A DNA stretch of 64,000 nt, taken from positions 62,001 to 126,000 of the forward strand of contig QHNH01000012.1 in assembly GCA_003218375.1 (NCBI GenBank), in the 5' to 3' direction. Position numbers and translations under genes: made by a program. Shown here piece after piece: positions 55,292 through 61,014 of this stretch (the stretch's first letter is position 1; the number at the start of each line of letters is the position of its first letter). The stretch comes from Verrucomicrobiota bacterium. Lineage in GTDB: Bacteria; Verrucomicrobiota; Verrucomicrobiia; Chthoniobacterales; UBA10450. The notes beneath the pieces were generated by a model. It was given only the letters and a program-made list of their open reading frames with translations. It had not been told where the DNA came from and did not search any database.

Positions 55292-55406
55292 TGGATCTTG
55301 TTCCGGCCATAAATGTTTCACGGATGCGGTCGAAAATCGAGCGAGACACAGAATCCGCCGTCGAAGAGGATGGCAGGCGAGGCTGGGCGCGCTAAGGTTT
55401 GGCGGG

Positions 55407-56081
55407 ATGCGAAAAATTTTGCTGGTCGAAGACGAACCCTCGATCGCCGACAATATTATTTACGCGCTGAAGACCGAGGGGTTCGCGCCGACCTGGTGCC
55501 AGACGGCGGCGGATGGCTTGCGCGCGTTTGCCGAGCACGCGTTCGCGCTCGTGATTCTCGATGTCGGCCTGCCGGACATGAACGGATTCGAGCTGTGCAA
55601 AAAGATGCGGGCCGGCTCCTTTGTGCCGATCATTTTCGTCACGGCGCGGAAGGATGAAATCGATCGCGTCGTCGGCTTGGAGATCGGCGCTGACGATTAT
55701 GTGGTGAAGCCGTTCGCGCCGCGCGAGCTGACTGCGCGGGTGAAAGCCATCCTGCGCCGCACCGAGGCGGGCGGTGCCATGCAACCGCAAACGTCCAAAC
55801 TGTTTTCGATCGATGAAGAGCGTTGCGAGATCCGTTATTGCGGCAGTCCGCTGCAACTTTCGCGCTACGAGTTTCGGCTTCTCAAGGTGCTTGTTCAAAA
55901 ACCGGGGCGCGTTTATTCGCGGGACCAACTCATGGAACTGGCTTGGGAAGAACCCGACACCGCCTTGGATCGCACTGTGGACGCGCACATCAAGACGCTT
56001 CGGGCCAAGCTCCGCGCCGTTCGCGATGACGAAGATCCCATTCGGACCCATCGCGGGCTGGGATATTCCTTGAAGGATTAA
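55407..56081 (+). CDS. creB: CreB-type response regulator
   Basis: 224 residues. Receiver domain with LLVEDEPSIADNIIYALK, Asp52 in LVILDVGLPDMNGFELC, and the switch-region KPF lysine; then an OmpR-type winged helix (LSRYEFRLLKVLVQKPGRVY, DRTVDAHIKTLRAKLR, THRGLGYSLKD). The pattern RTVD-HIKTLRAKLR and GLEIGADDYV is shared with Escherichia coli CreB. The CreC kinase starts 2 bp after the stop. In enterobacteria CreB binds TTCAC-N6-TTCAC boxes; such boxes stand before the VIT/VWA gene here. Confidence 0.92.
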   Translation: MRKILLVEDEPSIADNIIYALKTEGFAPTWCQTAADGLRAFAEHAFALVILDVGLPDMNGFELCKKMRAGSFVPIIFVTARKDEIDRVVGLEIGADDYVVKPFAPRELTARVKAILRRTEAGGAMQPQTSKLFSIDEERCEIRYCGSPLQLSRYEFRLLKVLVQKPGRVYSRDQLMELAWEEPDTALDRTVDAHIKTLRAKLRAVRDDEDPIRTHRGLGYSLKD

Positions 56082-56082
56082 C

Positions 56083-57537
56083 GTGAGCATCCGCGCGCGC
56101 ATTATCCTCACGCACCTCCTGATTGTCGGGATCGGTTTCTTTTACCTCGTGAAGAAAATCACCGACGTGAGCGAGATCAAGCCGCGCTACATGCAATCGA
56201 TCGAGGAGCCGATGGTCGATACCGCGCGGCTGCTGGCCGCCTTGCTCGAGAGCCAGAGTCCGGGTGGCAAGATCGACATCGCGCAGTTCCGCGAATCGTT
56301 TCAGCGGGCGCGGTCCCGTCCTTTCCTGGCGAAGATTTACAGCAAGGAAAAAACGGACATCGACCTCCATGTTTACGTCACCGACGCCAAAGGAATCGTG
56401 ATTTTCGATTCCAAGGGTGGACAGGCCGAGGGTCTCGATTACTCGCGGCAAAACGATGTCTGGCTCACCTTGCGCGGGAAATACGGCGCGCGCTCGACCC
56501 GCGCCGATCCCAATGATCCCACGTCCGCGGTGCTTTTCGTCGCTGCGCCGGTCATGAGCGGCGACCAGGTCGTGGGCGTGCTCACGGTTTCCAAACCGCA
56601 AAAAAGCATGGCCACGTTCATGCAGGAAACGCGGCGAAAGATTTTCGTGATGGGCGCGATCGCCGCGGCCGCAGTCGTAATTGCCGGCGCGCTTCTCTCG
56701 ATCTGGATCACGCGGCCGATCGAAAGGTTAACGCAGTACGCCCGCGCCGTCCGCGACGTGCGGCGCGCGCCGCTCCCGAAACTCGGCACGTCGGAAATCG
56801 CGACGCTCGGCCGGGCGTTCGAAGAAATGCGGGACGCCCTCGATGGCCGGAAATATATCGAGAGCTACGTCCAGACGCTGACGCACGAAATCAAAAGCCC
56901 GGTCGCTGCGATTCGCGGCGCCGCCGAACTGCTTCACGAAGAGATGCCGGCCGGACAACGGGAAAAATTTCTCGAGAACATCCAGGCTGAAACCGTACGC
57001 ATCCAGGAAATCGTCGATCGCCTGCTCCTGCTCTCGGCAGTAGAAGCGAAGAAATCGCTTGAAGATCGCAAACCGGTGGACGTAGTGGAGATCGTGCGGC
57101 GCGCAGTTGCGAGCGTCGCGGCTCAGGCGTCGGCGAAAGAGATTCAGCTGTTGGCGGAACTCCCGGCGGCGCCGGTGGTGATTTCGGCGGACGAATTCCT
57201 GATCGAGAAAGGCATCCTCAACCTGCTCCAGAACGCGATCGCATTTGCGCCGGCGGGCGGGACGGTCTCGGCTTCGCTCGCGAGTGCCGGCGATTCATGC
57301 GTGGTTCGAATCACCGACAACGGCCCCGGGATTCCTGAGTTTGCGCAGACAAAAATCTTCGAGCGCTTCTTCTCGTTGCCGCGGCCGGACACGGGAAAAA
57401 AGAGCTCTGGCCTTGGACTCGCGTTCATACGTGAGGTCGCGCTCCTTCATCGCGGCTCGGTCGAAGTGAAGAATGCGGTAGCGGGCGGCGTCGTGGCCGA
57501 ACTGATCCTGCCGCGAGGGGCCGAGGTGGTAACATAG
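56083..57537 (+). CDS. creC: CreC-type sensor histidine kinase
   Basis: 484 residues from a GTG. Membrane helices at ~5-25 and ~187-210 enclose a periplasmic CreC sensor with the family signature DYSRQNDVWLTLRGKYGARS and VLFVAAPVMSGDQVVGVL. HAMP segment, then H-box LTHEIKSP with His268, N-box NLLQNAIAFAP, and SSGLGLAFIREVALLHRG. The similarity to enterobacterial CreC runs over the whole length. CreC there responds to growth and carbon conditions; the local signal is unknown. Instead of creD, the following genes are the exosortase target, exosortase and EpsI-like protein. Confidence 0.93.
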   Translation: MSIRARIILTHLLIVGIGFFYLVKKITDVSEIKPRYMQSIEEPMVDTARLLAALLESQSPGGKIDIAQFRESFQRARSRPFLAKIYSKEKTDIDLHVYVTDAKGIVIFDSKGGQAEGLDYSRQNDVWLTLRGKYGARSTRADPNDPTSAVLFVAAPVMSGDQVVGVLTVSKPQKSMATFMQETRRKIFVMGAIAAAAVVIAGALLSIWITRPIERLTQYARAVRDVRRAPLPKLGTSEIATLGRAFEEMRDALDGRKYIESYVQTLTHEIKSPVAAIRGAAELLHEEMPAGQREKFLENIQAETVRIQEIVDRLLLLSAVEAKKSLEDRKPVDVVEIVRRAVASVAAQASAKEIQLLAELPAAPVVISADEFLIEKGILNLLQNAIAFAPAGGTVSASLASAGDSCVVRITDNGPGIPEFAQTKIFERFFSLPRPDTGKKSSGLGLAFIREVALLHRGSVEVKNAVAGGVVAELILPRGAEVVT

Positions 57538-57546
57538 GCTTGTAGC

Positions 57547-57621
57547 CTGTGCGCCCAGCGGAGTTTTACTCCGCTGCAAAGCGAATCCGAACAGCGGATA
57601 GCATATCCGCTGGGCGCACAG
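57547..57621. repeat. Inverted repeat with two internal hairpins, between creC and the VIT/VWA gene
   Basis: Outer arms CTGTGCGCCCAGCGGA (57547-57562) and TCCGCTGGGCGCACAG (57606-57621) are perfect 16-bp inverted repeats; inside are AGCGGAGTTTTACTCCGCT and AGCGGATAGCATATCCGCT, each a hairpin by itself. A REP-like mobile palindrome; it may also act as a terminator or mRNA stabiliser after creC. Confidence 0.7.
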
Positions 57622-57650
57622 ACTGGAAGTCTATGTTCCGCCGATCGTCA

Positions 57651-57694
57651 GTTTTCACGTCGATTTCACATCGGCTTCAAAATGTTTTCACACG
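57651..57694 (+). promoter_or_regulatory. Four tandem 11-bp CreB-like boxes
   Basis: Units GTTTTCACGTC, GATTTCACATC, GGCTTCAAAAT and GTTTTCACACG follow with an exact 11-bp period, so TTCAC (or TTCAA in unit 3) recurs at 57654, 57665, 57676 and 57687. The first two make TTCAC-N6-TTCAC, the known CreB recognition sequence. They end 19 bp before the start codon of the VIT/VWA gene, directly behind creBC. Confidence 0.85.
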
Positions 57695-57713
57695 CGGTCG
57701 CGACACTCGCGGC

Positions 57714-59720
57714 ATGAAAACAAAAACAACCCTGGTCGCGCTGGTGCTCGCGCTCTCGCCGATCAGTCGAATCTCAGCGAGCGAATCCGGCGCTACCGCC
57801 GACAAAACCTTGTCGCCCTACTTCCACGTCAAAGGCGGCGAAAGCAGTGCCGACGTGATGCCGCTCAAATCCACCAACGTCCGGGCCACAATCGCCGGTG
57901 TTATCGCCGATGTCTGCGTGACCCAGACTTACTCGAACGCGGGCGGCGTTCCTTTGGAAGCGACCTACGTGTTTCCGGGATCGACCCGGTCGGCCGTCTA
58001 TGGAATGCAGATGAAGATCGGCGACCATCTGCTGAAGGCGAAAGTCGAGCCGCGCCAGGAAGCGCGGCACACCTACGAAAAGGCGAAAACGGAAGGCAAG
58101 AGCGCGTCCCTCCTCGAACAGCATCGGCCGAACGTTTTCCAGATGAACGTCGCCAACATCATGCCGGGCGATACCGTGGAAGTGGAATTGCGTTACACCG
58201 AGCTGCTGGTTCCTGAAGGCGGCGAATATCAGTTCGTTTACCCGACGGTCGTAGGACCGCGCTATTCGAACCAGCCCGAGTCGACCACCCCGGAAACCGA
58301 CAGATGGGTCAAGAATCCGTATCTCGTGAAAGGCGAAAAGTCGCCGTCCACCTTTGGACTCGCGGTCGAGATCGCGGCCGGGATGCCGCTTCTGGATTTG
58401 CGATGTGAAACCCATTCCGTGAAGCCGGAGTTCCGCGACCCGGCCCGGGCGACGATCACCCTCGAGCCCGCCGATGCCACCGCGAACAATCGCGATTTCA
58501 TCCTCAAGTATCGTCTTGCGGATTCGAAGATTGAGTCCGGCCTGTTGTTGAGCAAAGGCGAGAAGGAAAACTTTTTCCTGCTCACCGTTCAACCGCCGAA
58601 GCGAACCGCGCCGGTCGCGCTCCCGCCGCGCGACTACATCTTTGTCGTGGACGTTTCCGGGTCGATGCGCGGTTTCCCGCTTCAGACCGCCAAGAGCCTG
58701 ATCCGGCAATTGCTCGCGACCCTCAAGCCTAACGACACGTTCAACGTCGTCCTGTTCTCCGGCGGTTCGAGAGTGCTGTCCCCGAACGAGGTTTCGGCGA
58801 CGAAGGACAACCTTTCCCACGCCCTCGCGATCATCGATCAGGAGCAGGGCGGCGGTGGGACCGAGCTTTTGCCCGCGCTCAAGGAAGCGCTCGCGTTGCC
58901 GGCTTCGAATGAGGCAGCCCGCAGCGTCGTCGTCATCACGGATGGTTATGTGGAATGCGAGGCGCAGGCTTTCGATCTCATCCGCAACAATCTCAACCGC
59001 GCGAACCTGTTCGCGTTTGGAATCGGGTCGTCGGTGAACCGCCACCTGATCGAGGGCATGGCGCGAGCCGGACAAGGCGAACCTTTCGTCATCACAAAGC
59101 CCGATGACGCGGAAAACGAGGTGCGCAAATTCCGCGATTACGTCGGCTCGCCGTTGCTGACCCACATCGCCGTCGATTTCGGGGGACTCGATGTCTACGA
59201 CGTCGAACCGCGCGCGGTGCCCGATCTCCTGGCGGACAGGCCGGCCGTGATCTTCGGTAAATGGAAAGGCGCGGCCACCGGCGCCATCTCGCTCCGCGGC
59301 AAAACCGGCGCCGGGGATTTCACCGCGCAATTCCCGCTCGCGGAGGCACGATCGATTGAGCGGAGCAACGCGTTAACCTACCTTTGGGCGCGAGCCCGGA
59401 TCGCGTCCCTCGCCGATTACAGCGCGCTGGGCGCGGCGGACGAGCGAGTGAAGGAGGTAACGAACCTTGGCCTGACCTACAATCTACTGACCGCTTACAC
59501 TTCGTTCGTCGCGGTTGACGACGTCGTGCGTAATCCGGGCGGCAACGCGCAGACGGTGAAACAGCCTTTGCCAATGCCGGCAGGCGTGGAGAACAGCGCG
59601 GTCGGAACGCCGATCCAAACTACGCCTGAGCCCGGGACTTGGGCGCTGCTCACGGTGGTCGCCGTTGTGCTGGGCGCTCGCCTTTATCGCTCGAGGAAAA
59701 TCAAATGCGCCTCCGCCTGA
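57714..59720 (+). CDS. VIT + VWA domain secreted protein with a PEP-CTERM sorting signal
   Basis: 668 residues from the ATG at 57714, the only start giving the signal peptide (TTLVALVLALSPISRISA). A VIT domain (~45-165, with VTQTYSNAGGVPLEATYVFP) and a VWA domain (~305-480) with an intact MIDAS, DVSGSMRG (Asp313). The tail (638-668) is a PEP-CTERM signal: PEPGTWALL, a hydrophobic stretch, and RSRK at the end. The protein should be exported, cut and anchored by the exosortase encoded next, whose start overlaps this gene by 16 bp. Four CreB-like boxes stand directly upstream. VIT+VWA proteins resemble inter-alpha-trypsin inhibitor heavy chains and bind other proteins; the ligand is unknown. No Shine-Dalgarno site is obvious. 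Confidence 0.93.
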   Translation: MKTKTTLVALVLALSPISRISASESGATADKTLSPYFHVKGGESSADVMPLKSTNVRATIAGVIADVCVTQTYSNAGGVPLEATYVFPGSTRSAVYGMQMKIGDHLLKAKVEPRQEARHTYEKAKTEGKSASLLEQHRPNVFQMNVANIMPGDTVEVELRYTELLVPEGGEYQFVYPTVVGPRYSNQPESTTPETDRWVKNPYLVKGEKSPSTFGLAVEIAAGMPLLDLRCETHSVKPEFRDPARATITLEPADATANNRDFILKYRLADSKIESGLLLSKGEKENFFLLTVQPPKRTAPVALPPRDYIFVVDVSGSMRGFPLQTAKSLIRQLLATLKPNDTFNVVLFSGGSRVLSPNEVSATKDNLSHALAIIDQEQGGGGTELLPALKEALALPASNEAARSVVVITDGYVECEAQAFDLIRNNLNRANLFAFGIGSSVNRHLIEGMARAGQGEPFVITKPDDAENEVRKFRDYVGSPLLTHIAVDFGGLDVYDVEPRAVPDLLADRPAVIFGKWKGAATGAISLRGKTGAGDFTAQFPLAEARSIERSNALTYLWARARIASLADYSALGAADERVKEVTNLGLTYNLLTAYTSFVAVDDVVRNPGGNAQTVKQPLPMPAGVENSAVGTPIQTTPEPGTWALLTVVAVVLGARLYRSRKIKCASA

Positions 59721-60493
59721 TCGCTTCGCCGCGAGTGCCACTCGTCGCATTGGCGATCGCGCTCTGGCCGGTGTGGCGCTGGTATGCGCTGCGCACCTGC
59801 GATGGCAGCGATGAGCCCTACGGCCTCATCGCGCTGGCGACGTTGGCCGTTGTCCTGGTGCGAAATGGAATGGAATTGCCGCGCAGCGAAAAACGAATCG
59901 TGTGCGCGGCGATCCTCCTCGGCGTTTATGCGCTGCTCTTCCCGATTATGTCGCCGCTGCCACGCGCTCTCCTGGCGGTGGCGGCGGTGGCGACACTCGT
60001 GTTTCGCCGGCAGAATCTTGTCGCGAACGCGGCCCTGCTCGGTCTTTCGTTGCCGGTGGTGGCGACCGTGCAGTTCTATCTTGGTTATCCGCTGCGCGTC
60101 GTCGCGGCGGAAGCTTCGGTCGTCACGTTGCGCGCGCTGGATTTTGCGGTCACGCGCGAGGGGACCCTGCTGCATTGGCGCGGCGAAACCATCATGGTGG
60201 ATGCACCCTGCGGCGGGGTGCGGATGCTGTGGTTCGGTATTTACCTTGCCGCCGCGCTCGCCGTCTTCAGCCAGCTCGGCAATCGCCGGAGTCTGTTCGC
60301 GCTCATCGCCGCGGTGTTCCTGGTAGTCGGCGCCAACATGGTTCGCGCGACGGCGCTTTTTTTTAAGGAAGCGCGCATCGTTGCTTTGCCGGATTGGACG
60401 CACACCGGAGTGGGCGTCGTGCTCTTCGCGGGCGCCATTTTCATCCTTGTCCGCCTAACGACTGGTAGAACGCCATGGCAATCCGCGACCTGA
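59705..60493 (+). CDS. Exosortase (PEP-CTERM transpeptidase-like integral membrane protease)
   Basis: 262 residues with about eight membrane helices. The three active-site residues are present in the right order and context: Cys169 in DAPCGGVRMLW, Arg214 in ANMVRATALFF, His233 in DWTHTGVG. Exosortases cleave PEP-CTERM tails and attach the protein at the surface. The gene overlaps the VIT/VWA gene by 16 bp and the EpsI-like gene by 19 bp, so the three are made together. No polysaccharide genes surround it, and the VIT/VWA protein is the only PEP-CTERM protein I see, so it appears to serve one substrate. Confidence 0.9.
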   Translation: MRLRLIASPRVPLVALAIALWPVWRWYALRTCDGSDEPYGLIALATLAVVLVRNGMELPRSEKRIVCAAILLGVYALLFPIMSPLPRALLAVAAVATLVFRRQNLVANAALLGLSLPVVATVQFYLGYPLRVVAAEASVVTLRALDFAVTREGTLLHWRGETIMVDAPCGGVRMLWFGIYLAAALAVFSQLGNRRSLFALIAAVFLVVGANMVRATALFFKEARIVALPDWTHTGVGVVLFAGAIFILVRLTTGRTPWQSAT

Positions 60494-61014
60494 TCATTCG
60501 CGCCACTTTCCTGGCGATCTGCGTGGTTACGGCCCTGGTGCCGTCGCGAGCGCTAAATCGCCAGACGTTCTCCGGCCCCCTGCCGGATTGGCCACAAGAT
60601 TGGGAAGGCGCGCAGCTCCAGCAGATTCCCTTGAGCGATCGCGACCAGAAGTTCAACGAAAACTTTCCCGGCCGGATCGCGAAGTTTACCGATGGCCAGC
60701 GCGAAATAATCTTTCGTTGGGTCACGACGGCGAGCCGGCAGCTGCATTCCAGCGCCGATTGTTTCCGCGGCGCCGGCTTTGCGGTGACACCGCATCCGGC
60801 GATTCGCGATGAGAGCGGACAACGCTGGAGCTGCTTTCTCGCGGCTCGTGGCGAGCACCGGCTTCTCGTTCGCGAACGAATCGCCGACCAGCACGGCCAG
60901 GAATGGACCGACGTGTCGGCCTGGTTTTGGAGCGCGGCGCTTCAACGGACACAAGGCCCGTGGTTGAGCGTTACAATTGTGGAAACGGAGGTCGGAAGTC
61001 AGATGACGAATTAA
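60475..61014 (+). CDS. EpsI-like exosortase-associated protein
   Basis: 179 residues. One N-terminal membrane anchor (LIIRATFLAICVVTALVPSRA) and a periplasmic domain with the key motif LHSSADCFRGAGF (His91, Cys96), the counterpart of H-S-P-x-x-C-L-P-G-x-G-W in EpsI proteins (DUF3485). EpsI often accompanies exosortases, as a separate gene or fused C-terminal domain. Start lies inside the exosortase gene. The last ~8 codons (ETEVGSQMTN) come from a GAGGTCG heptad array, so the C-terminus was altered by the repeat. Confidence 0.8.
   Translation: MAIRDLIIRATFLAICVVTALVPSRALNRQTFSGPLPDWPQDWEGAQLQQIPLSDRDQKFNENFPGRIAKFTDGQREIIFRWVTTASRQLHSSADCFRGAGFAVTPHPAIRDESGQRWSCFLAARGEHRLLVRERIADQHGQEWTDVSAWFWSAALQRTQGPWLSVTIVETEVGSQMTN
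60988..61008. repeat. GAGGTCG heptad array at the end of the EpsI-like gene
   Basis: GAGGTCG, GAAGTCA, GATGACG with 7-bp period, coding in frame for the last residues of the EpsI-like protein. Confidence 0.6.

Follow-up and report, generated by a model that had tools for sequence, protein, structure and literature searches.

What does a row of four near-identical boxes do between a two-component system and an exosortase operon? The window, which is the whole stretch of 64,000 nucleotides analysed here from a Verrucomicrobiota bacterium, contains creB and creC, a palindromic repeat element, the four boxes and then genes for a VIT-VWA surface protein, an exosortase and a partner protein (Table 1). 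The cre/blr tag of the CreBC and BlrAB systems, TTCACN6TTCAC, is present at creD of E. coli, Aeromonas and S. maltophilia, the last of which carries a TTCAA variant, and creD is a documented CreB target that is activated by CreBC (PMC4689548). The window has an exact match to this tag at 57654-57669 and three overlapping pairs in all. As far as can be read from the DNA, CreB from the adjoining gene very probably docks at the array, and we are quite confident that the array is an operator at which CreB activates the PhoB-type promoter of the VIT/PEP-CTERM-exosortase operon. All evidence for CreB control is comparative, and from it we infer CreB binding, activation over repression, the transcription start and the sorting step at the VIT operon.

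Table 1. Features of the locus, in positions of the window
Feature	Position	Strand	Remarks
creB, response regulator (OmpR/PhoB family)	55407..56081	+	NF008296 (CreB equivalog), 336.7 bits, cut-off 273
creC, sensor histidine kinase	56083..57537	+	NF008312 (CreC equivalog), 596.1 bits, cut-off 356
Palindromic repeat element	57531..57637	.	Includes the stop codon of creC; lies between this gene and the array
Putative CreB half-site 1, TTCAC	57654-57658	+	From the sequence
Putative CreB half-site 2, TTCAC	57665-57669	+	From the sequence
Putative CreB half-site 3, TTCAA	57676-57680	+	From the sequence; variant also in G006, G009 and G033
Putative CreB half-site 4, TTCAC	57687-57691	+	From the sequence
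Proposed -10 hexamer, GACACT	57702..57707	+	xAnnnT at offset 15, counted from the first base of box 4
VIT-VWA surface protein	57714..59720	+	PF08487 and VWA domains; predicted transcription start at or beside the ATG
PEP-CTERM sorting tail of the VIT protein	59625..59717	+	TPEPGTWALLTVVAVVLGARLYRSRK
Exosortase, XrtQ-like	59705..60493	+	PF09721
Partner gene with similarity to the C-terminal part of XrtT exosortases	60475..61014	+	NF033770 positions 291-389, E 1.3e-8

The boxes follow each other in exact 11-bp steps and the array ends at 57694, 19 nt before the ATG at 57714-57716, both as the preliminary description had it. The longer unit that it proposed, GNTTTCAC, fits boxes 1, 2 and 4; box 3 reads GGCTTCAA and departs from it at two positions. 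The regulator and the adjoining kinase both score above the NCBIfam equivalog cut-offs for CreB and CreC. The creB product has a receiver and a Trans_reg_C domain, and in its DNA-binding domain it shares 61% identity with E. coli CreB and 39% with PhoB. There is no array upstream of creB itself (55300-55407). On the target side, the end of the VIT gene overlaps with the exosortase gene, which in turn overlaps with the partner gene, and this suggests that the three genes form one operon. The VIT protein ends in a P-E-P motif, a hydrophobic stretch and a basic tail, and together with the PF09721 gene this identifies a PEP-CTERM/exosortase pair. The VIT protein itself scores 433.8 bits against TIGR03788 (marine sortase target), below the cut-off of 551.65. 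Exosortase Q (NF012182) is the best named relative of the exosortase, which is not filed as a member as it reaches 194.6 bits with a cut-off of 270. A partner gene behind the exosortase gene is also found in relatives. In several relatives the exosortase frame is about 500 amino acids long and may include the partner as a fusion; in the window it is a separate, overlapping frame.

If the boxes have a function at this operon, they should be found at orthologous operons, and this turned out to be the case. We compared 94 VIT loci, of which named genomes contributed 80 and genomes of the own phylum, including the congener G006, another 13, the last one being that of the window. An exosortase gene is linked to 28 of them and not to the other 66. 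Only the literature consensus TTCACN6TTCAC was used, with at least 9 of 10 matches within 400 bp upstream. By this criterion the tag precedes 27 of the 28 exosortase-linked VIT genes, where shuffled sequences would give 0.85, and none of the 66 unlinked ones. The P-E-P tail is divided in the same manner, with 28/28 exosortase-linked VIT proteins having it and 0/66 of the others. Exact pairs were separated by N6 in 17 loci, by N17 in 15 and by N28 in 5, with single hits at N7 and N21, and these peaks indicate an 11-bp register. The array carriers belong to the own phylum, Pseudomonadota, Acidobacteriota and Myxococcota. The exosortase-linked VIT group may have a single origin, as the tree permits, so the contrast of 27/28 with 0/66 may reflect one evolutionary event and its Fisher p of 1e-22 is not independent evidence. 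The main weight of the conservation argument is therefore the survival of the array among diverged members of the exosortase-linked group, whose VIT proteins are about 43-56% identical to that of the window (82% in G006). There are two exceptions. One genome (L040) has an exosortase and an unlinked CreC, and its VIT gene has no array. Another (L047) has the array and no CreC over the cut-off, but this genome may be incomplete.

The position of the boxes relative to the gene suggests how they might work. We anchored 51 arrays (27 from VIT loci and 24 others) on their last box and found xAnnnT at offset 15 in 27 of them, with 8 arrays for the next best offset. The binomial P is about 2e-21 (n=51), uncorrected for relatedness, and the offset was first noticed in part of this set and then counted on all of it. 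Several of the arrays outside these 27, including most of those from Comamonadaceae, have a weaker second pair about 10 bp further on, and xAnnnT at offset 15 can be read from that pair. The same arrangement is present in the creC-creD gap of E. coli K-12 (L256), where TTCAC-N6-TTCAC is followed 10 bp on by the weaker TTCAA-N6-CCCAC and then by TATCCT, at the offset that the proposed -10 has in the window. The fourfold array had originally been regarded as stronger than the usual two-box tag. This view could not be maintained, as arrays of three to five boxes are frequent and a degenerate second pair also follows the tag at E. coli creD. In 11 of the 51 arrays, that of the window among them, the ATG lies exactly 27 nt past the first base of the last box, and the proposed -10 of the window ends 6 nt before the ATG, which makes a leaderless mRNA probable. 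The start of the VIT transcript thus probably coincides with the ATG or lies no more than one or two bases away. An almost absent leader had been a guess in the preliminary description, and the conserved -10 position and the clustering of ATGs at 27 nt now speak for it.

Based on this anatomy, phosphorylated CreB would bind head to tail, probably as two dimers, to the four half-sites, which lie on the same side of the helix. The gene-proximal dimer would take the place of a -35 element, and RNA polymerase would then engage the -10 hexamer, which lies at a fixed distance of 10 bp past the last box. Transcription from about the VIT ATG would give a nearly leaderless mRNA encoding the VIT protein, the exosortase and the partner. 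The VIT protein would go to the envelope, and its PEP-CTERM tail would be processed by the exosortase. CreC would be the sensor; in a Salmonella study, pyruvate and lactate were reported as cues for CreBC (PMC7873081). Alternatively, CreB could bind and repress the promoter, or keep it off until it is dephosphorylated. Boxes this close to a -10 could indeed obstruct RNA polymerase. However, the fixed 10 bp to the -10 and the lack of an evident -35 other than the box itself are the geometry of creD, which CreBC activates (PMC4689548), and we consider repression improbable. By analogy with creD, activation is the likely sign of control at the VIT promoter.

It is also possible to ask whether CreB is merely a neighbour and the boxes belong to another regulator of the OmpR/PhoB family, such as PhoB or PhoP. 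Direct repeats of 11 bp are general in this family and are also used by PhoB/PhoP, and TTCA-type half-sites are known for actinobacterial PhoP. In the Pho box of PhoB/PhoP, 11-bp head-to-tail half-sites replace the -35 element about 10 bp before the -10. The array shares this layout, but its half-site, its regulator and its target genes are of the Cre type. The distribution of the arrays also argues against another regulator. A CreC over the cut-off is found in 27 of the 28 genomes with an exosortase-linked VIT gene and in 3 of 36 other genomes tested. Allowing one mismatch at most, we found the four-box pattern in 8 of 58 relatives, all 8 with a CreC homologue, and in 0 of 48 others; the reversed control gave 0. 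One of these homologues, that of G004, was found beside the array and is only about 30% identical. In nine array-bearing genomes, creBC is located not in the stretch around the array but elsewhere in the genome, so the link between arrays and Cre is more than adjacency. Moreover, arrays of three to four boxes are found upstream of creD in several genomes, which belong to different phyla, and upstream of creB in two (G268 and G054), and the genes behind arrays that were inspected, a set that is not exhaustive, included no pho or pst gene. Another regulator is therefore hardly to be expected. The creD gene of the source genome, which is full-length and lies away from creBC (L203, G000:C3:44237-45550, minus strand), has no array upstream, so the VIT operon holds the only recognisable array of this genome. 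The creD gene of G006 (L202) has none either.

How special the array is within its own genome could be determined directly. With 19 of 20 matches, 57654 is the only position of the window with a four-box score of at least 16, and shuffling the window 100 times with its dinucleotides preserved and scoring both strands gave best scores of 13 to 16. Three TTCA boxes in 11-bp register occur in the 3.96-Mb genome only at the array (two overlapping hits; reversed-pattern control, 0), and a search with the four-box pattern, allowing up to three mismatches, gave no second convincing array in the genome. The concern that the genome might contain many arrays unrelated to CreBC thus did not materialise. 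The exact tag TTCAC-N6-TTCAC occurs 8 times in the genome, compared to 2 times for the reversed control. A lone pair therefore says little in this genome, and it is the array that is special. Exact pairs were dropped as markers of a regulon here, as only one of the eight is part of an array and one (L001) falls within a long open reading frame. Some pattern hits in other genomes (e.g., L169 and L182) were perfect short tandem repeats and were not convincing as arrays. The end of the repeat element is 17 bp ahead of the first box; the element has 46-nt arms that are 78% complementary and 77 genome matches on both strands, in roughly 40 places. That the array is a chance repeat or a by-product of this element can nevertheless be dismissed almost entirely, because the genome has only this one array, none of the 100 shuffles reaches its score, and the array is conserved in distant orthologues and retained in G006, which lacks the element. 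Taken as a whole, the equivalog scores, the conservation in orthologues, the uniqueness in the genome and the arrays at creD and creB support the original proposal that the regulator next door is tied to the exosortase operon over a large phylogenetic distance.

The array has the half-site, the 11-bp direct repeat, the TTCAA variant known from S. maltophilia and the CreB-equivalog regulator in common with the cre/blr tag, and its distance to the -10 is that of the proximal pair at E. coli creD. It differs in having four boxes in unbroken register, in its predicted near-leaderless start and in its target, which is an exosortase/PEP-CTERM operon in another phylum instead of creD, the creD of its own genome being without an array. 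A VIT-VWA target gene linked to a two-component system is also known from the Proteobacterial dedicated sortase system (TIGR03785/03787/03788), and the target in the window is related to TIGR03788. In the window, however, an exosortase and a PEP-CTERM tail take the place of the sortase, and the two-component system is CreBC, with the models for the dedicated kinase and regulator scoring far below their cut-offs. PrsK/PrsR with sigma-54 is likewise a two-component system tied to PEP-CTERM genes through a conserved upstream motif (PMC1569441). PrsR is NtrC-like and works with sigma-54 at -24/-12, whereas the window has an OmpR/PhoB-type regulator and a -10-type promoter. The paper describing PEP-CTERM expected that further regulators and DNA motifs were still to be found (PMC1569441), and the array offers a candidate for the regulation of exosortase systems outside PrsKR/sigma-54, with a precise site and a named regulator.

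The regulator and the half-site were known; the target class, the phyla and the four-box rule with a fixed -10 are new. We found no report of CreBC control of exosortase and no paper combining any two of exosortase, CreC and the VIT domain, which is weak evidence of novelty, as the search covered few subscription papers and not the original work on the E. coli cre tag. CreBC is known from E. coli and its relatives; judged from these comparisons, it appears to be a switch of long standing and wide distribution for the VIT/exosortase machinery that sorts surface proteins. More tentatively, and with the odds somewhat against it, CreBC could be an ancient multi-phylum switch for envelope and surface proteins that acts through arrays of some four boxes at a fixed distance from the -10, often on leaderless messages, and the two-box tag of enteric bacteria would then be a worn remainder. 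If so, the switch covers VIT/PEP-CTERM-exosortase operons, CreD, DUF4153 and other membrane or secreted proteins. The recasting of the CreB site from a two-box tag to a four-box rule with a fixed -10 can be tested at E. coli creD. In a genome with a single array, the signal of CreC and the role of the exosortase become directly testable.

Arrays were also seen in front of other genes. In two genomes of the same family (G033 and G009; L247 and L248), creC is followed by a four-box array with TTCAA as third box and then by a gene for a DUF4153 membrane protein. In genomes of the same class, arrays also stand before genes for a VanZ-like protein and several unknown proteins (L180, L187, L189, L191 and L198), which suggests wider Cre regulons there. 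In the congeners G003, G004 and G006 (L243, L244 and L246), a four-box array stands behind a second CreC-like gene, which is diverged. The gene after this array encodes a large protein that begins with a signal-like segment and matches no Pfam family, and a related-looking protein is encoded behind an array in G056 (L242).
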